64,000 nucleotides of DNA from Siniperca chuatsi (lineage: Eukaryota > Chordata > Actinopteri > Centrarchiformes > Sinipercidae), in NCBI RefSeq assembly GCF_020085105.1, contig NC_058058.1, forward strand, positions 7,961,175 through 8,025,174, read 5' to 3'. Shown here piece by piece: positions 6,556 through 64,000 of the stretch. The notes under the pieces were generated by a model. It ran no database searches, was not told the DNA's origin, and was given only the letters and a program-made list of their open reading frames with translations. Position numbers and translations under genes: made by a program. The number at the start of each line of letters is the position of its first letter. The first letter of the stretch is position 1.

Positions 6556-6861
6556 CCTCTTTAAATTCACAATATAAGTCACATGATGACATACTCTGGA
6601 GCTCATAGTGCCACTTCTGCAGGAACTGAGCTTTTCTCTACTCATACTTAAAGTAAAGAAATGAGAGTGGTATCGGTCTTCTCATCTAACTCTCAGCAAA
6701 AAAGCAAATAATCAGATTTCCAAAAATGTCAAACTATTCATTTTAGTTTTAATAGGATTTACTCAAACCTGACAGTATGTGACAGAAGGTAAAAGCTGTT
6801 GTTGCTACCTGTTAAACTGTTAAACCAAATATTTGTCTAAAGAATGTCTTTCTTTCTGCAG

Positions 6862-7281
6862 AACCTGATGGCCAAAGCGTTGTATGACAACATGCCGGAG
6901 TCCCCTGAGGAGCTGGCCTTCCGTAAAGGGGACATCCTGACGGTCATTGAGCAGAACACGGGAGGCCTTGAGGGCTGGTGGCTCTGCTCCCTGCACGGCC
7001 GCCAAGGCATCGCCCCTGGCAACCGTCTGAAGCTGCTGATTGGACCCATGTTCGAGGCCCAGTCGCCAGCAGCAGCAGCCGCCGCCGCCGCCGCCGCTGG
7101 CCAGTCCTCTCCTCAGAGCTCGGCCTATCAGCAGAAGGCTGGCTCGGGGGCTCAGGGGATCTACCAAGTGCCACCGTCCCTCCAGAGTCCACAGCAGAAC
7201 ATCTACCAGGTTCCTCCTGGACAAGACATCTACCAAGTCCCACCAAGGAGTACTCTAGCTGCTGATAACACTCCGAGCAAG
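6862..7281 (+). CDS. nedd9: nedd9 SH3 exon (first exon in the window)
   Basis: The acceptor is TTCTTTCTGCAG before AAC CTG ATG GCC and the donor is AAG|GTGAGG. The exon has 420 bp (140 codons) in phase 0. It encodes the whole SH3 domain, then a run of ten alanines (about 7069-7098, GCA x3, GCC x6, GCT), then three IYQVPP motifs, which are candidate Crk-SH2 docking sites once phosphorylated. The ATG at 6844 lies in the polypyrimidine tract upstream of the acceptor and is not the start; family members begin in a separate short exon. Confidence 0.95.
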
Positions 7282-10200: not shown

Positions 10201-11377
10201 CCTCCAATCTGTGGTTATCAAAGTGGTGCAATTTTCGGCGGTTGTTCCTGTCTATTAAATAGAAAGATTTTGACTGTGTGTTATACTTACGTCCATGTGT
10301 GTCAGTGTATTGCAGGAGTCCAGACAAGGCTCTGTTGTTTTCCAGTGACGTCTGACTGTTGGACAGAAGCGCCATCAGTCTCTGCGGCCACAGTCGGCCC
10401 TGTTAAAGCCAAACAGCCATATCTGTAGTGAAAACTGCAAAGAACGATTTCAGGGAAAGTGTTGTTGGCTCAGAGTGGAAGTTGAAGGAGTTATTTTGGA
10501 CATCCAGGGTTCAAAAAGTCCCCTTCATTTTTTGCACAGACATTAATTTAGCTCTTTGGTAAAAAGTCCCAAAAACACAAGGAAACATCCAAACTGATTT
10601 AAAATTCACCGTTAACAGTGAGCAGAAGCTAACAATTATGTTTTGTAGAAAACTGATAATACTTTAACCAGTTTTAGTCCGTTCACTTTCAAATTCTGAG
10701 TCAATTAACTATTTCTTTCTTTGAGAACGACGAGTTTGAGCTTAAATACAAGTTAATCAACGTTAAATATGACGCACAACTCCTCTCCAACATACTATGC
10801 TTTAATATATTATTGTTAATCTTAACTCAGGAGTGGGGTTGACTCTCCATTTTTCAACACAAAATGTACACATCACCAAAATTAAATACGTGTGGTGTTT
10901 TGTTCCAAATTGCAATGACAAAGCGTTTGCAGTTTTGTTTATTGTAGCTTCTTCTCTATAGAAACAGTGGCTAAGTATTTAGAGCATTTGACCAAACCAG
11001 TGGACAAAATAAGACTGTAAAGCTAAAATAATTCAGACTGACAGCCATAATATAAACCTATAGTACAGAATTACCCAAGAGACTTTAAAGTGGGAACAGA
11101 ACCAGCAGCACCTTCCACTTTGAAACTCTATAAGCACAGTACACTGCGTCGTAGTATTTGTGGAGATAATTTTTGCTGACATGAAATCCAAACCTTGACC
11201 TTTGCTCTTCAAAACACCAAACTCAGTCTTGTTTACTACTGCGTGTCTCTGTGGAGCAGTATTGATGACAGGCTGCGAGCGCTGACTCATGCTGCATGCG
11301 GTGGGATGTGCTAAGAGCCGATGGAGCTGAAGGGAAAACAGCCATTTTCTTGTTGTCAAGTGCAAACGCGCATGTGA

Positions 11378-11408
<31 letters not shown>

Positions 11409-17400: not shown

Positions 17401-20400
17401 GACTCTGGCTCAGATGAATGGCATTCCTTTCCATACTAGGCGACGTGCTCTCATTTTCCGTTCCTCTCACTTTCCCCCTCTGTTACCTTTTTTCATAAAT
17501 CTCTTTTACAACCCCCCCCCCCTCCTCTTCATCTCTGCTGCTTCCTCAGAAACATTAATCCCATTCTGAGTTGGCCTAGGTTACAGCTCCTACTGCTCAC
17601 GCTCCGATAAATGTCTCCACAGTACGAAAGATGGTATAAGAATATTAACTCTGCTATATGGCGACTCATGAGTGGATATTGGGACTAAAGTCTTATACCT
17701 CCCTGGAGACTTTCCCCTCTGCCAGAAAGCCATGAGTATGGTTCCTATTTTCTAGGCCTATTAATGAACCCTGCTCACTCCAGAGTGGCGATAGTGGTGC
17801 GTGGGGGCAGGAGAGGAGTACTGGGCTCAGGGAAGGACATTCCCAGCATTCCTCTGTCTGTCTGATGCAGCAAGGAGGTCTGCAGCTCTGCTTTTAGAGG
17901 GCCGACTGGCGGGGGACACTGGGATTAGGAGGTGTGGAGGGACTGATTAGCACTAACAGGAAAAGAGGAGGGAAAATGTGATTAAAAAATGTCACGGGCG
18001 TATGTGAAAAAAGCAGTACGTGTTTTGTTTTTTCCAAGCGGTAATCACACCATTATTCTGTAGCCTGTCTGCACCACAGCGTAAAATATTTTAAAGGTGT
18101 ATTAAATCCTACAGCGCAGAATTCCTGGGTTTATAACAGGGTTGTTCATCAATACCAATGACCCAATGATTACTTCACCAGGTTCTGAGATTTCTGGATT
18201 TAAAAAGACACACTCCAGCCAGTACTACGATAAAACTTCTCCAATACCCTTTTAATCATAAAACATCTTCCATTCAGATGGAGTAAAAAGCTTGGATTTA
18301 AGTGCTGCTGAAGTTTTACTTTTGCTCATTTTATTGCTCAACTGAACCACATTAGTTTTATGTTTTATTTAGTCTTTATTAGTTGAACTGCAGAATTGTG
18401 ATATTCTGTCTGTTTTCCAGTAGAGCCCTTGGTTGAAATATTAACCCATCAGTCTTTAGTTCTGTATTCATTTTTCTCTTGCTCTCAATATTTCAGCTTT
18501 TAGGCTAAAAACACAATCTTCTATACAGCCTTACTTTATCTGGTACTGTATGACCATTAGCTAATGTGGTCTAATGTTAGCTAGCTTAACTTGCACTTCT
18601 TTCTCTTGCTCTTAATGTTTAAGTTTTTTGAAAAATTATTATTTTAAAGTAAAGAGCTCAAACGATTATTTGATAAATCAATTAGTCGACTGACAGAAAA
18701 TCAATCAGCATTAACAATACAATTTTCTTGTTTCAGCCTCTCCTCCAGTGTCAGGACTTGCTGCTTTACTCTGTTTTTCTATCACTGTAAATTGAATGTG
18801 GCTGAATGTGGAAAATGGCTTTTGGGCTTTTGGTCAGACAAAACAAGACATTTAAAGATTTCACCCTGGGCTCTGAGAAATAGTGATGGGCATATTTTGT
18901 TATTTTTTGACATTTTATTGACAAAACAAGTAACCAGTTAATTGGAAAAATAACCGATAATGAAAGTAATTGTTAGTTACAGCCCTGATTTTATTTATTT
19001 TTTGTTGGTATTTTTGCCTTTATTAGATATTATCCAGTATCGAGCTGACAGGAAATGGTCCCAGGTCAGACTCTTTGCTCTGCAGCTCCAGGTCTCTGTT
19101 TATCTCTTGGTTTCCTGGGTTCTTTACAAATAGCCTGAAACAGGGAGGATGTTGGTCCGTCTCTGTTGCCAGAACATATTTGCCTCAACTGTAATCACTC
19201 ATTGTCCCCGGGTCACTCGAGGACTGGGAATGAAAACAGGCAAAAACAATGGAGAACGAGGACAGATGTACAGAGGTCTGAGAGCTGGGTGGCATGGAGT
19301 GTGTTTGTAATTTGTATTTGTCTGGGCCACTGCTGTTTCCCAGGTGTCGTTTTTTAGACAGCAGCTCTGATTGTTTGTCTCTCCCACCCTGCTGTGATCG
19401 GACAGGTGGTGACCCCGACCAGAGTGGGACAGTCCTACACCTACAGCCCAGGCCAGCACAACCAGCAGGACCTCTATGATGTCCCACCCAGTAGATCACA
19501 GGGGGTAGGTGTCTCGTGTTCCCACTGTGTACAGTTTACCAGTATGACCTTCTGTCTACTTAAAAATCTAATAGTAAAGTCTAATGTAAATCTAATAATG
19601 TGAATAACCACCAGTGAACATTGTGATTGATTTCAAGGGGATTTAATTGACATTTTGGCTGAAATGTACTATTACATATAACATAAACAAAAAGAAAAGA
19701 AAAATGATCAAATAAAAACAAGTCAAAAGTAAAATGTCTGAGCAAAAGTTTTCATGAAAAATGCCAAACGGGCCATAAAAGCATTTTTTTCTGTAATATC
19801 AGTTTTCTTAATTTTAGTGTTTTTGCATATTTTAGCACATTTACTACAAATCTCACATACTTCACATTACAGCTATGTTTTAACCATTTGAATGCATGTT
19901 TCCTACCTTTTCAGGCATCCACGTTTCCATTAATATCCGTATATTAAAAAAACTCAGTCAGCAGGTTCTTGAAACTACCTTGAGTCGTAAAATCCATCAC
20001 AGTGTACATTTAGTCTGCGTTAATTTTTGTCAAAGTTGCATTATAGAGAAAAAATAATGCAGACTTGAGGTTCACTGTGGTGGATTACACAACTCGAACA
20101 TGTTTCAAGAGTTTCAAAAGTAACCTATTCCTACCAAACAGAAAAATACATCCAAAAAAATGGCAAGAAGTGTAAAGCATGCAACTAGTATGGGTCTTTA
20201 TTTGTTAAAGCTTAAATGGGTTCTGTGTTGTGTTTTTGATCAAATCAGAATCAATCAGTTCTGGTGATTTAAAAAAAAAAAAAGGCAACTGTCCCGTATG
20301 CACCTTTTGCTCTGATCCACCACAGTTAAACATTAAGAAATAAATCAATCAGTCATTCAAACAAACAAATCATCTGTAGTCAACACAGCAAGAATAGTTT

Positions 20401-23400
20401 GAGGCAAATACAGTAGGAGGTCTGCATTTGTCAGAACGAGAAAACTGTTTCTTTGATCTTCTGCATGTTATGTGCCACATATCCTGTTCTCTGCAGTCAC
20501 ATTATTTTCTCAGAAAGGATCCTTGACAGTTTTGTCCTGTCATCTTAAGCTGATAAACCCTTCAGTACTGTTGTGATGTTAGTTTTGAATAAAGCTAGAT
20601 TTATGGTATATATATGCATTATTTAAAGCAAAACAAATGGATCTTCTACCAAATAAAGGGCTGCAATTTAACATTTTTAAAAGAACAACCTAGTTCTTGG
20701 TGATCATAACTGATACTAAGTTTTATGTGAGGTTTTACCCTTATTTGGTGTTTATCTTATGTTTCTTTCATGTTTCAGGTGTACGATATTCCACCTGGTC
20801 AGATGTATCCCGGTGCCAGAAATCAAGGCGTCTATGATGTTCCTCCGTCTCAAATGGACCCCAGGACACAAGGCGTTTATGACATACCTCCCTCTTCACA
20901 AGGGGTAAGAGAACATTTCAACAACAAGTTAATCTTCCACCACAATGAAAGGGCACATCAGTCAGACAAAGTTGAATTAAGGAAGTGGTAGCTGCTTATG
21001 ACCAGAAAATGTTATTTTATGTTTGTTGATACAGTTCCTGGTATTTCTCTTAATTGTAATAAATGAATAATATGTCAGACGTCATATTTATGACATACTT
21101 GAGGCAGCGCTAAATTAAAGCTTTGCCTGCCAGTTGAGTTTAACCAAAACTCCATGAGTATGGTTCTGTGTCTGAACTCTCCAGCAGGGGAAAAAAAAAA
21201 GTCAAGGACATAACTCTTCTCTTTCCAGACCCTCTAAGATTTCACCAGACTTCCAGACCCGACCAGGCAGAGCGCCATCAGTTTGTTTGTAATAACCTGA
21301 AATATGCTGGGACCTGTTATTTGCGTCGTTCCTGATTACAGTTTGGGCAGGCCTGTCTAGCTGTAAAGAGTGCATTTCAAGGCTGATGGAAATCACTTAC
21401 AGGCCACCATTTTATTCACCCCACTGCGCTCCCATCATGCTCTGTGCCATGAACGTCAGACTCTGCTCTGTAAAGTTGGTGGGAGGTTAAATCTTTGTTG
21501 TAACTCTGACTCTGCATTAGAGGAAGTAATCAAAGGCAGAAATTTTTAGGTTTTAAATATAGTATCTACACAAGACAGAAGATCTTTCACTTCCTCTATT
21601 TCTAACTGCAGTTCTGCTGTACAAACTTTGAAAACCCACTGACATTCACTGCGTTTACATGCACTCAGCGGGTTACAGTCGACTTCTTCCAGTAAGCTGA
21701 TTTTTTTTAAATGTCATGTAAACATTAAAAATGGTTTCACACCTGGAGAACGCAGATTTATTGTGCATGACAAAAGACTGCAGACAGGGAAAGTAACGGC
21801 AGAGAGACTGGACGAAAGAAGAGATCAGTACACAGAGTGATGCGTCCTTGTATTTAAAATAATTCAATTCAAAATCCAGCTAAAACTGTTGCCTCTAAAC
21901 TAAAAAGTAGCCTCTAAAAGCATAAATACGTTGGTTGCCACTGCAGAACATTTGACTATTTGTCAAATTCATACACGTCACGCTGTGAGGAAATGCTGCT
22001 CTGTCAGTCTGTGGTTTCTGTCTCTTCTACTGTTAAAATAAGAAAGCCGTGGTTCCAAAATAATGTCGGGGAGAAATCTGATTACTGACCTTCTGCATGT
22101 ATACACGGATTTGCAGTAATCAGGTTATTACAGAGTATGTAAATGTGTACTCTGATTACTTACTGACCTGATTTCTCTGATTAACCTGGTTATTTAAGTA
22201 CTTCATGTTCCTGATTTGCAAGGAAAGATGGTGTGTTGTTTTGGTACAAACCTAACCATGTTCAGGTGCCGTTTGCTACAGAAACAGGCAGGTTTATTGG
22301 CGTCCCTGAAGAGAAGAAACTTTGTTTGTTATATGATTTAGGTGAGATTGAAGATAAAGACCATTTTATATTTTATTGCTCGTTATATGATGATTTAAGG
22401 GCTACTCTTTTTAGTAAAATGTCCTTCATTTCTGATGAGTTTTTCTGGATGAATGATTATAAACTTGAGTTGTGTTTTAGAAATGGAACCTTTTGTGTGG
22501 CTGATTTTATTTGTAGAGTCTGGGACAGAAGACAAAGTTCTTTGATTGCAATGTGATGTAAGAAGTTATGTCCATGTCTGACAGATGTTTCACCATTGCA
22601 CACTGATTGTGCTGCATGGTTGTGAATTTGCACTGAATGTAAACCTAATGATTCTCTTCACCTGCAGGTCTACTCGGTGCCTCCCTGCAGGACCAACCCC
22701 GCCCTCCAGGAGGGAAACTACGACTTCCCACAGCCTCTCAAACACAAACAGGAAGGCATCTACGACGTACCGCCACCTGTCCTCACCAAGCCCACACAGA
22801 GCCCCCAGTCGCATTATGATTTCCCCCCCAGTGTGGAGCCTCCTGCACATCACAAACACCCAAATACCAACGGAAACGAAGGCATTTACGACGTACCTCC
22901 ACCCGCCCTTCATCCAGGGGTGGGGTCTCAGAGGGACATATACGACATCCCCCGGGGCATGCAGCCCCCCCAGCACAGAACTTCGCCCGCTGACAGAGAC
23001 GGAAGCAAAGGCATCTACGACATCCCCGCTCAGGATGCTCGTGCAGTAGCAGACGTGACGGACGGTGTGAACCGTCTGTCAATCTCCAGCACCGGCAGCA
23101 CGCGCAGCAGCATGTCCACCTCCTCGTCCTCCACAGGCTCCAACTCCGAGGGCCGCCTCGCTCTGGATGTGGATGCTGCCGTCCAGAGGTTGTACCGCCT
23201 GCAGCAGGCCTTGGAGGCCTCAGTCGGGGGTTTACATTCAATGGCAGCTTCCCCTCACTGGAGGACTTTTCCCTTCATGGAGCGCCACACTAACGACGTC
23301 CGCACAGTGCTAGACAGGGTCCGGGCTGCTCTCGGGGACTTTGTTGTGTTTGGCAGAGGGGCTGCAGCAAACGCCACAGCTCTATCAGACTCCAGCCTGC

Positions 23401-26016
23401 ACACTAAGCTGAAAAGGCAGCTGGGACGCCTGGAGGATTCGCAGCAGATCCTCCTGCAGATCTACCAAGGCCTGGAGAACTGCAGCTGGGCTCTGAACAC
23501 CCTAGCGTCGTCTGGCAAGCACCACAACAAGAGCGACGACCTGGATCGCTTCGTCATGGTCTCCAGGACTGTTCCCGATGATGCCAAGCAGCTGGCCTCC
23601 ACGATAGGCAGCAATGCTGAGCTGCTGTTTAGGCGGACGCACATGGACGGGTCTTTCTCTATCGGGAGCACACCTGATGAGAACATGATCCACCCGCTCA
23701 CCTCCCCCTCCTCTGATAACGACAACTACGGAGGCCAGACCAAGCCCTTCCCCGTGCCCTCCAGCCAAGACAAAGACAACATGAACAACAGCGAGAAGTG
23801 TGTGAAAAGCTGGATGGAGGACTACGATTATGTGCATCTCCAGGTAAATCCTCAGAGTGAGAAAAGCCTGGGCTAAAAAGATGTAACTCGGATCATTACG
23901 TTAAAGTATGTGTAGAATTGTAATGGGATCAGTGCAGCTATCCTGATGACACAAGTTTTTTTTGCGAAAATTCGTTAGTCTAAGTGTTGCTTTTAGCCCA
24001 GGGTCCGGTCCGTTTGGGGCATTTGTGTCAACCAGAAAGTATTTTTAATGCTACAATTAGATGTCACCAAAGTCAAAAGGGGCTTTAATACATGATCTGT
24101 CTTGTTTCTGTGAGAAAACCTTAGATTCTTACATAAATAGTTTTTTATGATGACACAGTATTTCATCCTAAATCAGTGTGTTATGTTAGCAACAGCTGTC
24201 AAGTTAAGTCAAGTCAATTTGATATACAGTATATAGACAATATATAGCCACTAAATTGAAGATTTCAATCTTCAATCCTTCTGGGGCTTTTTTAGGATTT
24301 GAAGGGTCATAGCCTACACTCATTCCTTTATTTGCTTTATTCCCACAGACTTTATACTACAGAGAGTGTGTCTAATTCATGTAGGATGCATCAAAGGTCA
24401 AACCTGGGCGTTTCTCACCTACTTGTCTTCCTCCACAGGGCAAAGATGACTTTGAACGTCAGCAGAAGGAGCTGTTGGACAAAGAAAACATTATCAAGCA
24501 GAGTCAAGTCCAGCTGGGCCAGGAACAGGTGAGGCTTTCACTTTCTACATGATTCTCTATTATCAGTCATAAATATTTATATATTCATACCTTACCATCA
24601 GATACACACAGCTGTTGACCTTTTGGGTCTCATGGGTGCAGAGACTTTGTGAGACAAAAGTCAGGCCAGAGGGAGTCGAACATTTGGAGCCTTTTTTTGC
24701 AGCCAGATGGCCCCTCATAGCCTTACACATAGAAAATAACTAAACTGAGAGATTAGATGCCCTGAAAACATGTTTTCTCAAACAGCTTCCTACTATGAGT
24801 GTTGCCGTTCGACATGAACACACAGTTTTCTGCCGAAGTTGGAACATTTTGGGGTGTTTCATGAGAGAAATCTGTCAGTGCTCTCCTCATTGGTTTGAAG
24901 TGCAGCATTTATGCACATTTAAATCAAAATGTAATGACAATTGTTGGGTTGTTTGCTTACGTTTCCCGACTGCTGTCAATCAAATCTGAAACCACAACAA
25001 CACAGTTCTGATCTAAACTCTTAATAAATAACTAAGGATGTTGTTTTTTGAACCTTAACTTTGATTGTTGCTTACTTAGTCATTCATATTTAATGTTATA
25101 GACAAATACAAAACCAAAAAATATTTCATTCACCATCATATATGATAAAAACAAGCGGCAAATCCTCATGTTTGAGAAGCAGGAAAAGAGCAAATAATTT
25201 GGCATTTTTGCTTGAAAAAAGACTGAAACGATTAATCGATTGTCAAAATAGTTGATACATTTTCTTTTGATGGACTAATCGATTGCGGCCCTGGTTGGAA
25301 GCAGATTTCTCTTTTTGTCTGTCCTATAGCAAGGGGGCAGAATTTTAATCTTAGATGCATTTTCACAGAGTTTGACCTCAAATGATTATCTCAGTAAAAT
25401 CAGAAGGATGTGATAAATGTTAACAAGCAAGCTCGGAAAATAATAAAAATCTCGTCACCCTTCACAGATCAATCAGTTCAAGAAGCTAGAGCAGGAAGTG
25501 ATCAAACCCGTGGAGAACGACATCACACAGTGGATCTCACACCAACACTCGGGCAAAACCTCTGCCTCCCCCTTGGACTCGTCCTCGTCCCTGTCCCCCT
25601 CCACCCACGTTTGTGCTCGGGACCGCCAGCTGCTCAGCTTCTACTCCGAGCAGTGTGAGCAGCACTTCGTCACGCTCCTCAGCGCCGTGGACGCCTTCTT
25701 CAGCTGCGTCAGCACCGGGCAGCCTCCTCGCATCTTCGTGGCGCACAGCAAGTTCGTCATCCTCAGCGCCCACAAACTGGTCTTCATCGGAGACACCCTG
25801 TCCAGGCAGGCCTCAGCTCCCGAGGTGGCCAACAGGGTGATGAACTCCAGCAACGTGTTGTGTGACTTGTTAAAGACGGTGGTGGCTGCGACCAAAACGG
25901 CCGCCCTGAACTACCCGAACACAGCTGCCATCCAGGAGATGGTGGACAGAGTCACTGATCTCTCGCACCACGCACAGCAGTTCAAAGAACAGTTGCTGCA
26001 ATTGGCCAATTTGTGA
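6862..26016 (+). CDS. nedd9: Cas-family scaffold protein NEDD9 (HEF1/CasL), 5' exon missing
   Basis: Joined coding exons 6862-7281, 19406-19504, 20779-20904, 22668-23843, 24439-24528 and 25468-26016 give 819 residues plus a missing N-terminal exon; human NEDD9 is about 834. Family role: a non-enzymatic docking protein at focal adhesions that couples FAK and Src-family kinases to Crk/C3G signalling. Visible in order: SH3 domain (ALYDN, ELAFRKGDILTVIEQN, GGLEGWW), a substrate domain with 14 YxxP motifs, a Ser-rich four-helix region with STGSTRSSMSTSS, the Src-binding YDYVHLQ, and the FAT-like Cas C-terminal domain (PPRIFVAHSKFVILSAHKLV). The exon-2 text VVTPTRVGQSYTYSP resembles HEF1 more than p130Cas, and smim13 downstream in convergent orientation matches the NEDD9 locus of vertebrates. 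Every internal exon is a multiple of three. I found no credible first exon in bases 1-6861. Confidence 0.95.
7323..7800 (+). repeat. CGATTAATCGA-family repeat, copy 2, interrupted
   Basis: It opens GGGCTGCAACTAATGACTAT. The match breaks near 7390 and resumes after 7582 with text shared by other copies (TTGCTTGTTTTGTCAGCC, CAGCAAATCCTCACACTTG). The intervening stretch is listed separately. Confidence 0.65.
7391..7581 (+). mobile_element. Hairpin-bearing insert ending in AATAAA and a poly(A) run
   Basis: The insert holds an imperfect inverted repeat (7428-7455 against 7467-7492, both around CTGATTTCACTGATTAG) and ends CAATAAAATGT followed by about 17 A. It sits inside the copy-2 repeat. The A-tail suggests retroposition, the hairpin a MITE; I cannot decide between them. 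Confidence 0.5.
8464..8501. repeat. (ATAAT)n microsatellite
   Basis: TATATATATAATATAATATA and continuing ATAAT units. A simple repeat in nedd9 intron sequence. Confidence 0.85.
9155..9475. repeat. Degenerate minisatellite of AGCTAACATTAGCTACCATAAG units
   Basis: The motif TAGCTAACATTAGCTACC and variants recur at irregular 50-80 bp spacing, together with CTGGATGTTGGCTA and AGTAACT. AGCTAACATTAGCT is itself near-palindromic. It lies inside the largest nedd9 intron. Confidence 0.7.
9480..11380. other. nedd9 intron, no recognised feature
   Basis: AT-rich sequence with T-runs (9829-9855). Open frames are short and show no family match. Confidence 0.45.
11387..11408. repeat. (CA)n microsatellite
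   Basis: About eleven uninterrupted CA dinucleotides, flanked by CG-containing sequence. Confidence 0.9.
11653..11662 (+). promoter_or_regulatory. TATA-box-like motif inside the nedd9 intron
   Basis: GGTATATAAAGGC is a near-consensus TATA box on the nedd9 strand, followed by a GC-rich stretch (11690-11870). It could mark an internal or alternative promoter. No downstream exon or start codon with a donor was recognised, so this is only a motif. Confidence 0.25.
12920..13375 (+). repeat. GCTAGCATGCTAAC-rich interspersed repeat, copy 1
   Basis: The body has GGATTGCCATGA, ACTTTGGTGATCCCCTGACT, GACATTCCCATCAGCCTCAG and CATGTTAGCATGCTAGCATT. Related copies: 47060-47545 (inverted) and 52850-53165. 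Confidence 0.75.
13380..14530. other. nedd9 intron, no recognised feature
   Basis: No coding sequence, RNA gene or repeat was recognised. Confidence 0.4.
14545..14578. repeat. (GT)n and G-run
   Basis: GTGTGTGTATGTGTGTGTGT followed by CTGTGGGGGGG. A simple repeat. Confidence 0.85.
14686..15090 (+). mobile_element. MITE-like element starting GGGCTGGGCGATATGG
   Basis: GGGCTGGGCGATATGGTGGA is the left end of a family very common in teleosts. The matching right end may be at 15600-15630 (GATAATAGTCATATGATCAC), after the retroposon listed next, which would make this another nested pair. Confidence 0.45.
15092..15595 (+). mobile_element. Retroposon-like interspersed repeat
   Basis: It begins GTATTTGTATTGCACCTTTC and AAGTGCTTTACATACGACAT. 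It continues with GAGAGTTGGAGCAGACCTCA, GACTTTGGGGACAGTAAGCA, AGCAGCAGATCAGAAATGTT and CACACAGGAAGCCAACGCAA. I recognise this order from an abundant teleost family; the LINE clade is not certain. Confidence 0.55.
15660..18640. other. nedd9 intron, no recognised gene
   Basis: Contains C-runs (16312-16320 and 17511-17522) and AT-rich tracts (16445-16500). No family-matching frame was found, although this sequence lies within the large second visible intron. Confidence 0.4.
18648..18985 (-). repeat. CGATTAATCGA-family repeat, copy 3
   Basis: Inverted copy, from AAACGATTATTTGATAAATC to AATTGTTAGTTACAGCCCTG, including GTCAGACAAAACAAGACATT. Confidence 0.75.
19406..19504 (+). CDS. nedd9: nedd9 coding exon, VVTPTRVGQ / LYDVPP
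   Basis: The exon has 99 bp in phase 0. The acceptor is GATCGGACAG before GTG GTG ACC CCG and the donor is CAGGGG|GTAGGT. It carries one YxxP motif (LYDVPP). Its TP-x-RVG opening corresponds to the ITPVRTG region of mammalian HEF1. A 12.1-kb intron full of repeats precedes it. Confidence 0.92.
19967..20116. repeat. Imperfect inverted repeat with arms of about 60 bp
   Basis: The left arm CTTGAAACTACCTTGAGTCG and onward pairs with the right arm, whose reverse complement begins CTTGAAACATGTTCGAGTTG. Both continue through ATCCA-C-CACAGTG and AGTCTGC-TTA. The loop is about 25 bp. It lies in the nedd9 intron between 19504 and 20779. Confidence 0.65.
20779..20904 (+). CDS. nedd9: nedd9 coding exon with three YDxPP motifs
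   Basis: The exon has 126 bp in phase 0. The acceptor is TGTTTCAG before GTG TAC GAT ATT and the donor is CAAGGG|GTAAGA. It encodes VYDIPP, VYDVPP and VYDIPP spaced about 16 residues apart, part of the substrate domain. Confidence 0.93.
21650..22200. mobile_element. Degenerate MITE-like sequence with GTTTACATGCAC start
   Basis: TGCGTTTACATGCACTCAGC at the left, with repeated AATCAGGTTATTACAG / TCTGATTACTTACTGACC text at 22115-22190 that is self-complementary to the left part in pieces. This resembles a teleost element family, but the ends are worn. Confidence 0.4.
22233..22556 (+). pseudogene. LINE-1-like ORF2 C-terminal fragment
   Basis: An open frame of 107 codons reads ETGRFIGVPEEKKLCLLYDL, GEIEDKDHFIFYCSLYDDLR and on to a stop. 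The G-R-x-x-x-VP-x-E-x-xLC-x-x-C/Y-x-x-x-x-x-EDxxHFxxxCxxY pattern is that of the C-terminal zinc-knuckle-like region of L1-type LINE reverse transcriptases. One expected cysteine is replaced (LCLLYDL). It is a 5'-truncated dead copy, 112 bp upstream of a nedd9 exon and in the same orientation. Confidence 0.7.
22668..23843 (+). CDS. nedd9: nedd9 large exon: substrate domain end, serine-rich bundle, Src-binding site
   Basis: The exon has 1,176 bp (392 codons) in phase 0. The acceptor is CACCTGCAG before GTC TAC TCG and the donor is CTCCAG|GTAAAT. Seven further YxxP motifs come first (VYSVP, NYDFP, IYDVP, HYDFP, IYDVP, IYDIP, IYDIP). The Ser-rich region and the helical segment with DDLDRFVMVSRTVPDDAKQL follow, and the exon ends in EDYDYVHLQ, the Src SH2/SH3 docking site of Cas proteins. 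It is much more GC-rich than the surrounding introns. Confidence 0.95.
24439..24528 (+). CDS. nedd9: nedd9 short coding exon
   Basis: The exon has 90 bp in phase 0, from TTCCTCCACAG|GGC AAA GAT GAC to GAA CAG|GTGAGG. It encodes GKDDFERQQKELLDKENIIK and a further ten residues. This charged, helix-prone linker lies between the Src-binding site and the C-terminal domain and has the same position and length as in mammalian HEF1. Confidence 0.93.
25070..25295 (-). repeat. CGATTAATCGA-family repeat, copy 4
   Basis: Ends GACTAATCGATTGCGGCCCT. Includes ACTGAAACGATTAATCGATT. It lies in the nedd9 intron before the last exon. Confidence 0.7.
25468..26016 (+). CDS. nedd9: nedd9 last coding exon, Cas C-terminal domain
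   Basis: The exon has 549 bp including the TGA at 26014-26016. The acceptor is CCCTTCACAG before ATC AAT CAG. It encodes the Cas-family C-terminal FAT-like domain, which binds partners such as SH2D3/BCAR3 proteins. Nearly invariant text includes DRQLLSFYSEQCE, PPRIFVAHSKFVILSAHKL and FIGDTLSRQ. The end LLQLANL fits the family's usual end. Confidence 0.95.
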   Translation: MNQFKKLEQEVIKPVENDITQWISHQHSGKTSASPLDSSSSLSPSTHVCARDRQLLSFYSEQCEQHFVTLLSAVDAFFSCVSTGQPPRIFVAHSKFVILSAHKLVFIGDTLSRQASAPEVANRVMNSSNVLCDLLKTVVAATKTAALNYPNTAAIQEMVDRVTDLSHHAQQFKEQLLQLANL

Positions 26017-46014: not shown

Positions 46015-54599
<8,585 letters not shown>

Positions 54600-54699
54600 C
54601 TCTCGCTGCGGCCGATCATGTTCCTGTACCTGTTTGGAAAAAACACAATATACTGTAGCTGTCGCTGTGACCAGTCCGTGATCCTTAAAGACAAACATG

Positions 54700-55235
54700 C
54701 TCTGTTTTCAGCATCTCACATGTGAGAATTTGCTGCTTTTCTTTGTCATATATGAAATTAAACTGAAATATCTTTTGGTTTTGGACTGTTGGTCGGATAA
54801 AACAAGGAATGTGAACACTCCACTTTCAACTTTGCCAAATAATAACAGTAATTTTCCACTATTAGTCATTTTATAGACAAAGCTATGAATCAATTAATTG
54901 AGAAAATAATTGGCAGATAAATTGAGGTAACACTTTATCTGGATAGTCCGTCTACAGATCGTTTATAGAGTATTTGTAACATTTCAACAGCTTATTAGTT
55001 GAGTTCAACAATTCAACTGTTTCACAAATAAAACCCTTTTCTGGGTTTGGTTAGGTTTAGGCACAAAAAACATCTTGGTCATGAATTGTCACATATACTC
55101 TATTGATAATATGTTAAACATCTACAGACAAAGCGAAACAGTTAAAAAGTTACAAATACTCTATAAACTATCTGCAGGGGGACTATCCAAATAAAGTGTC
55201 ACCTAAATAGTGAAAATCATTAGTTGCAGCCCTAG
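54700..55235 (-). repeat. CGATTAATCGA-family repeat, copy 9, split by a MITE
   Basis: 54700-54924 and 55205-55235 (AAAATCATTAGTTGCAGCCC) together make one copy; the 280 bp between is the MITE listed next. Confidence 0.75.
54925..55204. mobile_element. 280-bp MITE with long terminal inverted repeats
   Basis: The left end AGGTAACACTTTATCTGGAT pairs with the right end, which in reverse complement reads AGGTGACACTTTATTTGGAT. Pairing continues to GTTTATAGAGTATTTGTAAC, about 57 bp per arm. Centre: GGTTTGGTTAGGTTTAGGCA. Confidence 0.85.
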
Positions 55236-56689: not shown

Positions 56690-57361
56690 ACATCCACTCA
56701 TGAAAAATACTATAAGATCTATAACACAGTAAATTTAAACCTAGCCTATTTTTCACAAACTTTTAATAATTTAGTAGTTAAACTCAGAAGATAATTATGA
56801 AATCAATTTTAAACATTTCTGTCTTTCAGTGGTCAGATTATGTTCTCTAAATATATCTATAACATTTGTTCTATGGTGTTATATCACTTTATCTCATATT
56901 TAAGTGCCCATAATTGATCTATTATTTAATATATTTCATGCTATCAGTTCCAGATTTACCCACTAGGGGGCCCCAGGGCAAAAATTAGCTGTGTGCGTTT
57001 CTGTCGCTCTCTGTGCATTGTGTATGTGTTAGTAAGTAGTTGGTATAAATGTGTGATTTGAAACATTGTTTTGAAAAAGATGGTTGTTTTTAATCTCTTT
57101 GCCGTCTCTAGTGAGGATTTATTTGTCACTAAATTTCTCTTTAAATACCATTATGTGGTTTTTACGAAGACCCATTCCCAATACATGCATTATTGTTTCT
57201 AGTAGTTAATAAATTAGATGACAAAAAAATATAAAAAAAAGAAATACTCAGTCTTTTCTTCCAATTTATTTACGTTTTCAGGACAAAACACCATTCCACA
57301 GTTATCTTTTCCAGAACTTTAGAAAATATCATTTATTTTAGTCATAAATTTATTATTCGAT
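56690..57361. other. Intergenic or 3' flank of the repeat-protein gene
   Basis: AT-rich. TTTATT (AATAAA on the minus strand) at about 57347 and 57331 lies within 35 bases of the stop codon of the giant frame, so a poly(A) site could follow immediately. No other feature was recognised. Confidence 0.35.
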
Positions 57362-60300
57362 TTATCCTCTAAAACAATTACGCCTTCTCCACTGTGGTTC
57401 TAGCTTGTGCACCATTTTAAGAGGGATGTTAGGGAGCACAGCGGGATATGACTCAGGTACTGCTGCAGGCATAGTGGCTGGTGGATTTATCAGTTGTGGT
57501 CTGTGTTCTGCTGACTTAGGTCCATGTGAGTGTTCATCTTTAATTGTGGTGTGTGACTCAGGTGTAACTTTCAAGTCATGCTCAGATGTTGTTGATTCCA
57601 CCTCAGGTCCTGCTGCATGTGTGGTGTGTAACTCAGGTGGTGGCCCAAATGTTGGTGATTCGGCCGCAGGTGATGGTTCAGGTGTTGGTTCTGAGTCCTG
57701 ACCAGATGTTGGTGATTCTGATGCAGGCACTGCTTCAGGTGTTGCTCCTGAAACTTGCTCAGATGTTGGTGTTTCTGATGCAGGCACTGCTTCAGGTGTT
57801 GGTCCTGAAATTTGCTCAGATGTTGGTAACTCTGGAGCAGGTGCTGGTTCACGTGTTGGTTCAGATGTTGGTTCTAAATCTTGCCCAGACGTTGGTGATT
57901 CTGGTGCAGGTGCTGGTTCAGAGGAGGGTTCAGAATCCTGCACAGATGTTGGTGACTCTGGAGCAGGTGATGGTTCAGGTGTTGGTTCTGAGTCCTGACC
58001 AGATGTTGGTGATTCTGGTGCAGGTGATGGTTCAGGTGTTGGTTCTGAGTCCTGACCAGATGTTGGTGACTCTGGCACAGGCCCTGGTTCAGGTGTTGCT
58101 CCTGAAACTTGCTCAGATGTTGGTGATTCTGGCGCAGGCCCTGGTTCAGGTGTTGGTTCTGAGTCCAGACCAGATGTTGGTGACTCTGGCGCAGGTGATG
58201 GTTCAGGTGTTGGTTCTGAGTCCTGCCCAGATGTTGGTGATTCTGAAGCAGGTGATGGTTCAGGTGTTGGTTCTGAGTCCTGATCAGATGTTGGTGATTG
58301 TGGCGCATGTGATGGTTCAGGTGTTGGATCTGAGTCCTGACCAGACGTTGGTGATTGTGGCGCAGGTGATGGTTCAGGTGTTGGTTCTGAGTCCTGCCCA
58401 GATGTTGGTGATTCTGAAGCAGGTGATGGTTCAGGTGTTGGTTCTGAGTCCTGACCAGATGTTAGTGACTCTGGTGCAGGTGATGGATCAGATGTTGGTT
58501 CTAAGTCCTGACCAGATGTTGGTGATTGTGGCACAGGTGATGGTTCAGGTGTTGGTTCTGAGTCCTGATCAGATGTTGGTGATTGTGGCGCAGGTGATGG
58601 TTCAGGTGTTGGATCTGAGTCCTGACCAGATGTTGGTGATTCTGGTGCAGGTGTTGGTTCAGAGGAGGGTTCAGAATCCTGACCAGATGTTGGTGATTCC
58701 GGTGCAGGTGATGGTTCTGGTGTTGGTTCTGAGTCCTGACCAGATGTTTGTGATTCGGCCGCAGGTGATGGTTCAGGTGTTGGTTCTGAGTCCTGACCAG
58801 ATGTTGGTGATTCTGACATAGGCACTGGTTCAGGTGTTGCTCCTGAAACTTGCTCAGATGTTGGTGATTCTGTCGCAGGTGATGGTTCAGGTGTTGGTTC
58901 TGAATCCTGACCAAACATTGGTGATTCTGGCGGAGGTGATGGTTCAGGTGTTGGTTCTGAGTCCTGATCAGATGTTGGTGATTGTGGCGCATGTGATGGT
59001 TCAGGTGTTGGATCTGAGTCCTGACCAGACGTTGGTGATTGTGGCGCAGGTGATGGTTCAGGTGTTGGTTCTGAGTCCTGACCAGATGTTGGTGATTCTG
59101 GAGCAGGTGATGGTTCAGGTGTTGGTTCTGAGTCCTGACCAGATGTTGATGATTCTGGTGCAGGTGATGGTTCAGGTGTTGGTTCTGAGTCCTGACCAGA
59201 TGTTGGTGATTCTGGTGCAGGTGTTGGTTCAGAGGAGGGTTCAGAATCCTGCCCAGATGTTGGTGATTCCGGTGCAGGTGATGGTTCAGGTGTTGGTTCT
59301 GAGTCCTGACCAGATGTTTGTGATTCGGCCGCAGGTGATGGTTCAGGTGTTGGTTCTGAGTCCTGACCAGATGTTGGTGATTCTGGCACAGGTGATGGTT
59401 CAGGAGTTGGTTCTGACTCCTGACCAGATGTTGGTATTTCTGGCGCAGGTGATGGTTCAGGTGTTGGTTCTGAGTCCTGACCAGACATTGGTGATTCTGG
59501 CGCAGGTGATGGTTCAGGTGTTGGTTCTGAGTCCTGACCAGATGTTGGTGATTCCGGTGCAGGTGATGGTTCAGGTTCTGAGTCCTGACCAGATGTTGGT
59601 GACTGTGGCACAGGTGATGGTTCAGGTGTTGGTTCTGAGTCCTGATCAGATGTTGGTGATTGTGGCGCAGGTGATGGTTCAGGTGTTGGTTCTGAGTCCT
59701 GACCAGATGTTGGTGATTCTGGCGCAGGTGATGGTTCAGGTGTTGGTTCTGAGTCCTGACCAGATGTTGATGATTCTGCTGCAGGTGATGGTTCAGGTGT
59801 TGGTTCTGAGTCCTGACCAGATGTTGGTGACTCTGGTGCAGGTGATGGTTCAGGTGTTGGATCTGAGTCCTGACCAGATGTTGGTGATTCTGGTGCAGGT
59901 GTTGGTTCAGAGGAGGGTTCAGAATCCTGACCAGATGTTGGTGATTCCGGTGCAGGTGATGGTTCTGGTGTTGGTTCTGAGTCCTGACCAGATGTTTGTG
60001 ATTCGGCCGCAGGTGATGGTTCAGGTGTTGGTTCTGAGTCCTGACCAGATGTTGGTGATTCTGACATAGGCACTGGTTCAGGTGTTGCTCCTGAAACTTG
60101 CTCAGATGTTGGTGATTCTGTTGCAGGTGATGGTTCAGGTGTTGGTTCTGAATCCTGACCAAACATTGGTGATTCTGGCAGAGGTGATGGTTCAGGTGTT
60201 GGTTCTGAGTCCTGACCAGATGTTGGTGATTCTGGAGCAGGTGATGGTTCAGGTGTTGGTTCTGAGTCCTGATCAGATGTTGGTGATTGTGGCGCATGTG

Positions 60301-63300
60301 ATGGTTCAGGTGTTGGATCTGAATCCTGACCAGATGTTGGTGATTCCGGTGCAGGTGATGGTTCAGGTTCTGAGTCCTGACCAGATGTTGGTGACTGTGG
60401 CACAGGTGATGGTTCAGGTGTTGGTTCTGAGTCCTGATCAGATGTTGGTGATTGTGGCGCAGGTGATGGTTCAGGTGTTGGTTCTGAGTCCTGACCAGAT
60501 GTTGGTGATTCTGGAGCAGGTGATGGTTCAGGTGTTGGTTCTGAGTCCTGACCAGATGTTGATGATTCTGCTGCAGGTGATGGTTCAGGTGTTGGTTCTG
60601 AGTCCTGACCAGATGTTGGTGATTCTGGTGCAGGTGTTGGTTCAGAGGAGGGTTCAGAATCCTGCCCAGATGTTGGTGATTCCGGTGCAGGTGATGGTTC
60701 TGGTGTTGGTTCTGAGTCCTGACCAGATGTTTGTGATTCGGCTGCAGGTGATGGTTCAGGTGTTGGTTCTGAGTCCTGACCAGATGTTGGTGATTCTGAC
60801 ATAGGCACTGGTTCAGGTGTTGCTCTTGAAACTTGCTCAGATGTTGGTGATTCTGTCGCAGGTGATGGTTCAGGTGTTGGTTCTGAGTCCTGACCAAACA
60901 TTGGTGATTCTGGCGGAGGTGATGGTTCAGGTGTTGGTTCTGAGTCCTGACCAGATGTTGGTGATTCTGGAGCAGGTGATGGTTCAGGTGTTGGTTCTGA
61001 GTCCTGATCAGATGTTGGTGATTGTGGTGCATGTGATGGTTCAGGTGTTGGATCTGAGTCCTGACCAGACGTTGGTGATTGTGGCGCAGGTGATGGTTCA
61101 GGTAATGGTTCTGAGTCCTGACCAGATGTTGGTGATTCTGGAGCAGGTGATGGTTCAGGTGTTGGTTCTGAGTCCTGACCAGATGTTGATGATTCTGGTG
61201 CAGGTGATGGTTCAGGTGTTGGTTCTGAGTCCTGACCAGATGTTGGTGATTCTGGTGCAGGTGTTGGTTCAGAGGAGGGTTCAGAATCCTGCCCAGATGT
61301 TGGTGATTCCGGTGCAGGTGATGGTTCAGGTGTTGGTTCTGAGTCCTGACCAGATGTTGGTGATTCCGGTGCAGGTGATGGTTCAGGTTCTGAGTCCTGA
61401 CCAGATGTTGGTGACTGTGGCACAGGTGATGGTTCAGGTGTTGGTTCTGAGTCCTGATCAGATGTTGGTGATTGTGGCGCAGGTGATGGTTCAGGTGTTG
61501 GTTCTGAGTCCTGACCAGATGTTGGTGATTGTGGCGTAGGTGATGGTTCAGGTGTTGGTTCTGAGTCCTGACCAGATGTTGATGATTCTGCTGCAGGTGA
61601 TGGTTCAGAGGAGGGTTCAGAATCCTGCCCAGATGTTGGTGATTCCGGTGCAGGTGATGGTTCTGGTGTTGGTTCTGAGTCCTGACCAGATGTTGATGAT
61701 TCTGGTGCAGGTGATGGTTCAGGTGTTGGTTCTGAGTCCTGACCAGATGTTGGTGATTCTGGTGCAGGTGATGGTTCAGGAGTTGGTTCTGACTCCTGAC
61801 CAGATGTTGGTGATTCTGGCGCAGGTGATGGTTCAGGTGTTGGTTCTGAGTCCTGACCAGACATTGGTGATTCTGGCGCAGGTGATGGTTCAGGTGTTGG
61901 TTCTGAGTCCTGACCAGATGTTGGTGATTCCGGTGCAGGTGATGGTTCAGGTTCTGAGTCCTGACCAGATGTTGGTGACTGTGGCACAGGTGATGGTTCA
62001 GGTGTTGGTTCTGAGTCCTGATCAGATGTTGGTGATTGTGGCGCAGGTGATGGTTCAGCTGTTGGTTCTGAGTCCTGACCAGATGTTGGTGATTCTGGAG
62101 CAGGTGATGGTTCAGGTGTTGGTTCTGAGTCCTGACCAGATGTTGATGATTCTGCTGCAGGTGATGGTTCAGGTGTTGGTTCTGAGTCCTGACCAGATGT
62201 TGGTGATTCTGGTGCAGGTGTTGGTTCAGAGGAGGGTTCAGAATCCTGCCCAGATGTTGGTGATTCCGGTGCAGGTGATGGTTCTGGTGTTGGTTCTGAG
62301 TCCTGACCAGATGTTTGTGATTCGGCCGCAGGTGATGGTTCAGGTGTTGGTTCTGAGTCCTGACCAGATGTTGGTGATTCTGACATAGGCACTGGTTCAG
62401 TGGAGGGTTCAGAATCCTGCACAGATGTTGGTGATTCTGGCGCAGGTTCTGGTTCAGTGGAGGGTTCAGAATCTTGTACAGATGTTGGTGACTCTAGAGC
62501 AGGGGGTGGTTCAGGTGTTGGTTCTGAGTCCTGACCAGATATTGGTGATTCTGGTGCAGTTGATGTTTCAGGTGTTGATTCTGAGTCCTGTACAGACGTT
62601 GGTGATTCTGGCGCAGGTGATGTTTCAGGTGTTGGTTCTGAGTTCTTACCAGATGTTGGTGATTCTGGTGCAGGTGATGGTTCAGGTTCTGAGTCCTGAC
62701 CAGATGTTGGTGATTCTGGCGCGGGTGATGGTTCAGGTGTTGGTTCTGAGTCCTGACCAGATGTTGGTGATTCTGGCGCGGGTGATGGTTCAGGTGTTGG
62801 ATCTGAGTCCTGACCAGACGTTGGTGATTGTGGCGCAGGTGATGGTTCAGGTGTTGGTTCTGAGTCCTGACCAGATGTTGGTGATTCTGGTGCAGGTGTT
62901 GGTTCAGAGGAGGGTTCAGAATCCTGCCCAGATGTTGGTGATTCCGGTGCAGGTGATGGTTCTGGTGTTGGTTCTGAGTCCTGACCAGATGTTTGTGATT
63001 CGGCCGCAGGTGATGGTTCAGGTGTTGGTTCTGAGTCCTGACCAGATGTTGGTGATTCTGACATAGGCACTGGTTCAGGTGTTGCTCTTGAAACTTGCTC
63101 AGATGTTGGTGATTCTGTCGCAGGTGATGGTTCAGGTGTTGGTTCTGAATCCTGACCAGACATTGGTGATTCTGGTACAGGTGATGGTTCAGGTGTTGGT
63201 TCTGAGTCCTGACCAGATGTTAATGATTCTGTCACAGGTCCTGGTTCAGGTGTTGGTTCTGAGTCCTGACCAGATGTTGGTGATTCTGTTGCAGGTGATG

Positions 63301-64000
63301 GTTCAGAGGAGGGTTCAGAATCCTGCCCAGATGTTGGTGATTCTGGTGCAGGTGATGGTTCAGGTGTTGGTTCTGAGTCCTGACCAGATGTTGGTGATTC
63401 GGCCACAGTTGATGGTTCAGGTGTTGGATCTGAGTCCTGACCAGACGTTGGTGATTCTGGCATAGGTGATGGTTCTGAGTCCTGACCAGATGTTGGTGAT
63501 TCTGGCGCAGGTGATGGTTCAGGTGTTGGTTCTGAGTCCTGACCAGATGTTGGTGATTCTGGCGCGGGTGATGGTTTAGGTGTTGGATCTGAGTCCTGAC
63601 CAGACGTTGGTGATTGTGGCGTAGGTGATGGTTCAGGTATTGGTTCTGAGTCCTGACCAGATGTTGGTGATTCTGGAGCAGGTGATGGTTCAGGTGTTGG
63701 TTCTGAGTCCTGACCAGATGTTGATGATTCTGGCACGGGTGATGGTTCAGGTGTTGGTTCTGAGTCCTGACCAGATGTTGGTGATTCTGGTGCGGGTGAT
63801 GGTTCAGGTGTTGGATCTGAGTCCTGACCAGACGTTGGTGATTGTGGCGCAGGTGATGGTTCAGGTGTTGGTTCTGAGTCCTGACCAGATGCTGGTGATT
63901 GGGGCGCAGATGATGGTTCAGGTGTTGGATCTGAGTCCTGACCAGACGTTGGTGATTCTGGAGCAGGTGATGGTTCTGAGTCCTGACCAGATGTTTGTGA
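57362..64000 (-). CDS. Giant Pro/Ser/Glu-rich tandem-repeat protein, 5' end beyond the window
   Basis: One frame stays open from base 64000 to the TAA at 57364-57362 (2,212 codons plus stop). It has no ATG start inside, so the gene enters from beyond the right edge. From about 57650 upward it consists of roughly 110 units of a 19-residue repeat with core ESPTSGQDSEPTPEPSPAP. Unit variants include SSEPTPAPES, EQVSGATPEP and shortened SEPEPSPAPES. All length changes are multiples of three. The last 95 or so residues leave the repeat, with decayed units first (EVESTTSEHDLKVTPES), then a non-repeat tail ending QWRRRNCFRG. The composition suggests a disordered, acidic, mucin-like or extracellular stalk domain with many SP/TP sites. 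No signal peptide, membrane segment or folded domain is visible. Family not recognised; whether it is expressed is unproven. Confidence 0.6.
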   Translation of the reverse strand, partial: SQTSGQDSEPSPAPESPTSGQDSDPTPEPSSAPQSPASGQDSEPTPEPSPAPQSPTSGQDSDPTPEPSPAPESPTSGQDSEPTPEPSPVPESSTSGQDSEPTPEPSPAPESPTSGQDSEPIPEPSPTPQSPTSGQDSDPTPKPSPAPESPTSGQDSEPTPEPSPAPESPTSGQDSEPSPMPESPTSGQDSDPTPEPSTVAESPTSGQDSEPTPEPSPAPESPTSGQDSEPSSEPSPATESPTSGQDSEPTPEPGPVTESLTSGQDSEPTPEPSPVPESPMSGQDSEPTPEPSPATESPTSEQVSRATPEPVPMSESPTSGQDSEPTPEPSPAAESQTSGQDSEPTPEPSPAPESPTSGQDSEPSSEPTPAPESPTSGQDSEPTPEPSPAPQSPTSGQDSDPTPEPSPAPESPTSGQDSEPTPEPSPAPESPTSGQDSEPEPSPAPESPTSGKNSEPTPETSPAPESPTSVQDSESTPETSTAPESPISGQDSEPTPEPPPALESPTSVQDSEPSTEPEPAPESPTSVQDSEPSTEPVPMSESPTSGQDSEPTPEPSPAAESQTSGQDSEPTPEPSPAPESPTSGQDSEPSSEPTPAPESPTSGQDSEPTPEPSPAAESSTSGQDSEPTPEPSPAPESPTSGQDSEPTAEPSPAPQSPTSDQDSEPTPEPSPVPQSPTSGQDSEPEPSPAPESPTSGQDSEPTPEPSPAPESPMSGQDSEPTPEPSPAPESPTSGQESEPTPEPSPAPESPTSGQDSEPTPEPSPAPESSTSGQDSEPTPEPSPAPESPTSGQDSEPSSEPSPAAESSTSGQDSEPTPEPSPTPQSPTSGQDSEPTPEPSPAPQSPTSDQDSEPTPEPSPVPQSPTSGQDSEPEPSPAPESPTSGQDSEPTPEPSPAPESPTSGQDSEPSSEPTPAPESPTSGQDSEPTPEPSPAPESSTSGQDSEPTPEPSPAPESPTSGQDSEPLPEPSPAPQSPTSGQDSDPTPEPSHAPQSPTSDQDSEPTPEPSPAPESPTSGQDSEPTPEPSPPPESPMFGQDSEPTPEPSPATESPTSEQVSRATPEPVPMSESPTSGQDSEPTPEPSPAAESQTSGQDSEPTPEPSPAPESPTSGQDSEPSSEPTPAPESPTSGQDSEPTPEPSPAAESSTSGQDSEPTPEPSPAPESPTSGQDSEPTPEPSPAPQSPTSDQDSEPTPEPSPVPQSPTSGQDSEPEPSPAPESPTSGQDSDPTPEPSHAPQSPTSDQDSEPTPEPSPAPESPTSGQDSEPTPEPSPLPESPMFGQDSEPTPEPSPATESPTSEQVSGATPEPVPMSESPTSGQDSEPTPEPSPAAESQTSGQDSEPTPEPSPAPESPTSGQDSEPSSEPTPAPESPTSGQDSDPTPEPSPAPESPTSGQDSEPTPEPSPAAESSTSGQDSEPTPEPSPAPESPTSGQDSEPTPEPSPAPQSPTSDQDSEPTPEPSPVPQSPTSGQDSEPEPSPAPESPTSGQDSEPTPEPSPAPESPMSGQDSEPTPEPSPAPEIPTSGQESEPTPEPSPVPESPTSGQDSEPTPEPSPAAESQTSGQDSEPTPEPSPAPESPTSGQDSEPSSEPTPAPESPTSGQDSEPTPEPSPAPESSTSGQDSEPTPEPSPAPESPTSGQDSEPTPEPSPAPQSPTSGQDSDPTPEPSHAPQSPTSDQDSEPTPEPSPPPESPMFGQDSEPTPEPSPATESPTSEQVSGATPEPVPMSESPTSGQDSEPTPEPSPAAESQTSGQDSEPTPEPSPAPESPTSGQDSEPSSEPTPAPESPTSGQDSDPTPEPSPAPQSPTSDQDSEPTPEPSPVPQSPTSGQDLEPTSDPSPAPESLTSGQDSEPTPEPSPASESPTSGQDSEPTPEPSPAPQSPTSGQDSDPTPEPSHAPQSPTSDQDSEPTPEPSPASESPTSGQDSEPTPEPSPAPESPTSGLDSEPTPEPGPAPESPTSEQVSGATPEPGPVPESPTSGQDSEPTPEPSPAPESPTSGQDSEPTPEPSPAPESPTSVQDSEPSSEPAPAPESPTSGQDLEPTSEPTREPAPAPELPTSEQISGPTPEAVPASETPTSEQVSGATPEAVPASESPTSGQDSEPTPEPSPAAESPTFGPPPELHTTHAAGPEVESTTSEHDLKVTPESHTTIKDEHSHGPKSAEHRPQLINPPATMPAAVPESYPAVLPNIPLKMVHKLEPQWRRRNCFRG
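57650..64000. repeat. 57-bp coding minisatellite, about 110 units, with higher-order structure
   Basis: The 57-bp unit reads on the + strand GGTGATTCTGGTGCAGGTGA, then TGGTTCAGGTGTTGGTTCTG, then AGTCCTGACCAGATGTT. Units are 85-100 percent alike by eye. A rare variant beginning GACATAGGCACTGGTTCAG recurs at 58815, 60063, 60798, 62382 and 63060 with largely the same neighbouring variants, so blocks of units were duplicated together. The array is most degenerate at its left edge (57550-57850) and continues past 64000. Confidence 0.95.

Follow-up and report, generated by a model that had tools for sequence, protein, structure and literature searches.

The giant open frame that ends at position 57362 of the window is very probably a real gene, with a recognisable family and an unusual build. 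The window is the whole stretch of 64,000 nucleotides that was analysed (C17:7961175-8025174, in a genome of 718.8 Mb), and positions past its edge are given here as extended coordinates, i.e., the C17 position minus 7961174. The explanation we favour, with moderate confidence, is a two-exon gene (gene A) whose product, of 3,313 aa, would be secreted and would join a head that recognises phosphatidylinositol (PI) or GPI, and cuts it little or not at all, to a mucin-like stalk. From the N-terminus, the prediction has a signal peptide, then a PI-PLC-X domain of the bacterial type, about 154 copies of an acidic 19-mer of Pro/Ser/Thr/Glu type, and a short tail whose end is basic.

The repeat frame and its surroundings

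The minus-strand frame at 57362..64000 has 2,212 open codons in the ORF list and is still open at the window edge, which confirms an earlier sequence-only reading in which a frame of this length crossed the tandem units without a stop. Using TRF on the window, a repeat of period 57 was found with 111.6 copies at 57645-63976. The features of this region are as follows.

57362..57364, minus strand: TAA stop codon of gene A (sequence, ORF list and gene model)
57349..57354, minus strand: AATAAA hexamer just 3' of the stop, a putative polyadenylation signal (sequence read directly)
57332-57337 and 57265-57270, minus strand: further AATAAA hexamers of the same putative function (sequence read directly)
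57365..57661, minus strand: unique C-terminal tail of 99 aa, ending in HKLEPQWRRRNCFRG (gene model and comparison of A with B)
57662..64000, minus strand: window part of the array of 19-aa (57-bp) units, consensus PESPTSGQDSEPTPEPSPA (TRF and unit alignment)
57662 to extended 66433, minus strand: entire array of gene A, about 154 units, short non-repeat linker included
57362..64000, minus strand: window part of the predicted exon 2 of gene A (exon ends predicted from sequence)

When the following 59 kb were taken, the repeat frame was found to stay open for another 3,303 bases, as had been anticipated, and the whole frame of gene A comprises 3,313 codons, up to extended coordinate 67303. The idea that splicing takes place close to the window edge was rejected, the exon running about 3.3 kb further with array and domain in one exon. 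At the other end, the final repeat units are irregular and pass into the 99-residue tail and the TAA stop, which supports the earlier view that decayed units lead into a tail resembling a real C-terminus. No Rfam family was found in the window at the gathering threshold.

The window also holds two genes with recognisable domains.

6841-26013, plus strand: CAS-family adaptor gene (SH3 8.7e-13, serine-rich domain 6.7e-59, CAS_C 4.6e-68)
46018-54707, minus strand: Regnase/ZC3H12-type RNase gene (UBA_6 2.2e-21, Regnase_1_C 5e-13)

Beyond the window, frames with LSM (L007 249-713, 4.4e-14), FAM176 (L008 423-896, 4.8e-51) and THRAP3_BCLAF1 (L009 4507-5532, 4.1e-8) domains were observed. Judged by these gene families, the surroundings are those of a vertebrate, presumably a fish.

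Predicted gene structure and a tandem paralogue

The earlier reading had proposed to look for a signal peptide in an exon further upstream, and a candidate is predicted: gene A would consist of a signal-peptide-like exon 1, with 35 coding bases, a 261-bp intron and one exon that carries the PI-PLC-X domain, the array and the tail. A tandem paralogue, gene B, lies 11 kb away, with an open frame of 1,107 codons at extended 68545-71865.

C17:8018536-8028442, extended 57362-67268, minus strand: predicted whole exon 2 of gene A (exon ends predicted from sequence)
Extended 66434-67201, minus strand: PI-PLC-X-like domain of gene A, outside the window
Extended 67269-67529, minus strand: predicted phase-2 intron of gene A, 261 bp (from sequence)
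Extended 67530-67564, minus strand: predicted coding part of exon 1 of gene A, 35 bases, MGIHQYLWLLSI (from sequence)
C17:8029716-8033299, extended 68542-72125, minus strand: tandem paralogue gene B, 1,107 aa, about 38 units (ORF and gene model)

The short first exon of gene A is a deduction from sequence motifs. Upstream of both frames stands ATGGGGATCCATCAGTACCTCTGGCTTCTCTCTAT, followed by GTAAGT and an intron ending in CCTCCAG, read as a predicted GT-AG intron of 261 bp in total for A and 260 bp for B. Joining the exons in phase 2 gives, for both genes, a protein beginning MGIHQYLWLLSIITSCSGSG and onward, with A at -3 and G at +4 of the predicted start codon. The N-terminus is hydrophobic in the predicted A and B proteins, and by the Kyte-Doolittle measure alone it is hydrophobic in A and in a paralogue on C9. 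In the latter, the sequence reads as a predicted structure of like order, where the first exon is short and hydrophobic and GTAAGT and a phase-2 junction precede the entire domain. The C9 paralogue is the independent support for this gene plan, because A and B are too alike to count separately.

The chief difference between A and B is the length of the array, with 153.6 units in A in comparison to 37.5 in B, and both arrays are open to the same tail. Using the 289-base tail as a query, two full and two partial matches were found in the genome. The partial copies of the tail start lie inside the gene B array (C17:8030317-8030409 and 8030779-8030871, 90% identical), and these extra internal copies point to in-frame growth by unequal exchange. 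The longest exact recurring block of repeat units in the array is six units, which occurs twice. Array length may be free to change in whole codons through unequal exchange, where the VNTR-like variation in unit number is that between paralogues A and B and not between individuals. With a three-unit repeat query, at least 102 matches were listed in the genome, all within the A and B frames, and dispersal of the repeat elsewhere in the genome was rejected on the basis of these matches.

Constraint on the frame

Openness alone is weak evidence for coding, because the array has another long frame on the minus strand, open for 1,330 codons (58501-62493), where a frameshift would not be stopped early; frame-specific tests were therefore run. 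From the A and B arrays, 3,377 of 3,642 codons were kept after array ends, codons near indels and non-intact triplets (265 codons) were dropped, and with this filter, which was chosen after the first, unfiltered result was known, the number of stops was 0, where the null gives 4.4 distinct stop variants on average (P ~0.0002, about one in 5,000 randomisations giving zero stops). In the null, each distinct single-step variant was randomised among positions of the same base, leaving aside 32 multi-step variant codons. The unfiltered test gave 4 distinct stop-like variants in comparison to 6.3 expected (P 0.08), and these four were read as alignment artefacts of array ends and indels, because the frame itself is stop-free. 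The frame behaves as coding, as had been proposed earlier.

The number of synonymous changes, weighted by instances, was 279 in comparison to 149 in the null for the filtered codons, and for the unfiltered codons it was 424 in comparison to 262 in the true frame, 152 in comparison to 269 and 189 in comparison to 226 in the other frames. Counted as distinct variants, the excess was not significant, with 23 in comparison to 19.1 (P 0.08) after filtering and 28 in comparison to 25.0 (P 0.14) before it. The synonymous excess is seen by instances and is weak by distinct variants, and the signal is therefore carried by amplified variants.

The claim that visible indels preserve the frame stood for the greater part: the net length was a multiple of 3 in 11 of 13 clusters for A and 4 of 5 for B, i.e., 15 of 18 together. 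The three exceptions, on which the claim did not hold, are +1 calls at the linker at the array start (A and B) and at the last bases (A). In addition, when a 94-codon stretch of the tail was shuffled 5,000 times by dinucleotides, it was open in 0.86% of the shuffles.

To set a neutral scale, A and B were compared over their flanks and intron, with 30 of 1,236 sites different and three gap runs, two of which are not multiples of 3. Taking these rates as neutral, gene B would stay open with a probability of ~0.011 and gene A with one of ~1e-6, an estimate that rests on few indels, takes mutation in the array to be like that in the flanks and leaves amplification history out of account; the non-array parts alone would stay open under neutrality with P ~0.21 each. 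Between the first 290 codons of A and B there are 15 differences, 11 amino-acid-changing and 4 synonymous (dN 0.016, dS 0.023, dN/dS ~0.7), and by itself this divergence is no demonstration that the head has been under purifying selection after the duplication. The last 98 codons of the tail have one difference, which changes an amino acid, in a comparison that is not independent, gene B being a recent duplicate.

Some of these results would suit a decaying pseudogene pair, or a neutral minisatellite open by chance: the dN/dS of the heads, the second long open frame of the array and the weakness of the unfiltered stop test. Such a history would have to produce two arrays without a single stop among the filtered codons, to keep both frames open against the neutral expectation given above, and to leave a complete predicted gene structure in A as well as in B, and we regard it as very improbable. 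That the giant repeat frame is a real coding gene is, in our judgement, close to secure.

The PI-PLC-X head and its family

The sequence-only reading had assigned the frame to no known family, a statement that did not survive analysis of the residues beyond the window. The 256 residues preceding the array, in the same exon, match PF00388 (PI-PLC-X) with an E value of 5.4e-10 and 39.5 bits in comparison to a gathering cut-off of 23.1. Among structures, the head matches PDB 2plc with an E value of 4.9e-17, 2plc and 1aod both being at ~5e-17 over query residues 3-248. On this sequence evidence, the family of the giant frame is recognisable as the bacterial-type phosphatidylinositol-specific phospholipases C.

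The Pfam search of the genome placed A and B each above the PF00388 cut-off. Two protein searches of the genome, which score the best candidates only, gave the same four places, namely A, B, C9:6896927 and C17:11612082. In the family search there were 61 PF00388 matches; they include the four places just named, and many of the remaining 57 resemble lone exons from other PLC genes. Neither of the two further family members carries the repeat in frame. In the fourth gene (L016 3647-5197, minus strand, C17:11.6M), the domain is apparently split by an intron. The third is as follows.

C9:6896927-6897688 (extent of the match): C9 paralogue, predicted 299 aa, PI-PLC-X head with 36% identity, PF00388 1.5e-8

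The C9 paralogue is like gene A in having a PI-PLC-X head, a tiny hydrophobic first exon and a predicted phase-2 intron; it is unlike gene A in that it has no repeat or tail, the frame stopping after the domain. The tail gave an RWD match below its cut-off (E 0.051, 14.2 bits in comparison to 22.8), which was treated as chance, and one 533-residue stretch of the repeat gave no Pfam match.

Catalytic positions

The catalytic residues of PI-PLC are His32, Asp33, Arg69, His82 and Asp274 according to a figure legend in PMC9572076, and Asp67 is named as an additional catalytic residue in the text cited from PMC3733634. In the numbering of Bacillus PI-PLC, the following residues were found, where the column for Asp274 was taken from the 2plc alignment, since the Bacillus alignments end short of it, and its equivalence to Asp274 is presumed.

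Genes A and B: His at His32, Glu at Asp33, His at Arg69, His at His82, Asn at Asp274 (presumed column), Asp at Asp67
C9 paralogue: His at His32, Asp at Asp33, Lys at Arg69, His at His82, Asp at Asp274 (presumed column), Asp at Asp67
C17:11.6M gene: His at His32, Asn at Asp33, Arg at Arg69, His at His82, Asp at Asp274 (presumed column), Asp at Asp67

Three of six catalytic positions (His32, Asp67 and His82) are thus kept in A and B, where the match at His82 hinges on placing a two-residue insertion before the second His. The C9 paralogue differs from gene A in keeping Asp33 and the presumed Asp274, and has Lys at Arg69. Since Arg69 and Asp274 are both lost, the head of gene A is likely, and not certain, to be a pseudoenzyme; from these positions we put loss of catalysis as the probable outcome. 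Asp67 and the two catalytic His remain in place, and some activity is therefore possible.

These kept residues would speak for another possibility, a secreted phospholipase that is active and is protected by its mucin-like tail. Such an enzyme would cleave PI or free GPI-anchored proteins, and the tail would stabilise it and aid its secretion, like that of carboxyl ester lipase (CEL), whose tail is O-glycosylated and dispensable for catalysis in the account of PMC6180059. Both repeat-less paralogues vary at Asp33 or Arg69 as well, and the family may tolerate change there. The replacement of Arg69 by His, of Asp33 by Glu and, in the presumed column, of Asp274 by Asn in both A and B argues against activity, as does the dependence of the second His on the alignment, and we consider an active enzyme unlikely. 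For the head that recognises and does not cut, the points on the opposite side include the divergence of the A and B heads, in which constraint is not clear, the retention of His, His and Asp67, and the Lys in place of Arg69 in the C9 paralogue also.

Composition of the stalk and tail

The stalk of gene A has 2,924 residues, including about 22 of non-repeat linker, with 27% P, 32% S+T, 20% D+E and 0.6% K+R, and 372 of its 930 S/T residues directly precede P. There is no N-glycosylation sequon in the predicted A or B protein and no Cys in the array. The tail of gene A is short, and its end is basic. For gene A with the signal peptide included, the computed pI is 4.05 and the charge at pH 7 is about -546. 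The earlier suggestion of a disordered or modified stalk is supported by this composition, which fits a disordered and perhaps O-glycosylated stalk.

The same charge and scarcity of K+R could be expected of a structural matrix protein binding mineral or ions, whose function would reside in the polyanionic stalk, with the head as a mere relic, and the fact that A and B differ mainly in array length would agree with it. A relic head is at odds with the finding that the heads are open and 96% identical in both copies, and this alternative seems to us improbable.

Comparison with known systems

Bacterial PI-PLC enzymes are secreted single-domain proteins, and the PI-PLC chains among the structure matches listed have 274-310 residues. 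Gene A is like the bacterial-type enzyme (1-phosphatidylinositol phosphodiesterase, PF00388) in its head, which matches over 246 residues, and unlike it in the changed Asp33, Arg69 and presumed Asp274 and in its stalk of about 2,900 residues.

The likeness to secreted mucins is in the long Pro/Thr/Ser tandem repeat, the missing N-glycosylation sequon and the Cys-free array. Typical mucin repeats are less acidic than the repeat of gene A, and unlike mucins, gene A has no mucin-type domain by Pfam in the parts scanned (the 256-aa head, 533 aa of repeat and 94 aa of tail).

CEL has a head of the type-B carboxylesterase/lipase kind, behind which the last exon encodes an O-glycosylated, PEST-like VNTR, which is not needed for catalysis and in which single-base deletions cause disease, as described in the portions of PMC6180059 drawn on here. 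Gene A is similar in having a lipid-enzyme head, a PST-rich VNTR and tail in the predicted last exon, and a short unique end. The heads are unrelated, the head of gene A giving only PF00388 in Pfam at E values up to 0.1 and no type-B carboxylesterase/lipase domain, and the likeness is thus one of working and not of membership. The CEL VNTR is also far shorter, with about 16 units of 11 residues. In gene A, where a second frame of the array on the same strand is long and open, a single-base deletion would yield a long foreign protein.

Among the matches listed in the PMC literature, as judged by titles and abstract openings, no description of a PI-PLC-X protein with a repeat tail was found, which is no proof of absence. 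A '1-phosphatidylinositol phosphodiesterase-like' transcript appears in a table on seabream larvae (PMC11252595) and 'PI-PLC X' in a table on sea-bass liver (PMC5333887), entries that do not imply orthology with A or B.

Implications

Under the two-exon explanation favoured here, the head would still recognise phosphatidylinositol or GPI-anchor headgroups on cell or microbial surfaces and would cleave PI/GPI poorly or not at all. The protein would be secreted, and the long polyanionic stalk, if glycosylated, would retain water and make a coat, like mucin-like tails. This coat role is a guess, which we put forward tentatively. A phospholipase-headed mucin, in which a secreted vertebrate PI-PLC would bind inositol lipids or GPI anchors without cleaving them and so tether a polyanionic mucin-like polymer of ~300 kDa to the surface of cells or microbes, is a proposal that we hold to be less likely than not.

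Giant repeat frames are easily written off as minisatellites, and here such a frame resolves into a gene with a known head and an unusual tail. With about 154 units in A beside about 38 in B, the pair may offer a natural test of the effect of stalk length, and of PI-PLC heads as binding modules in vertebrates.
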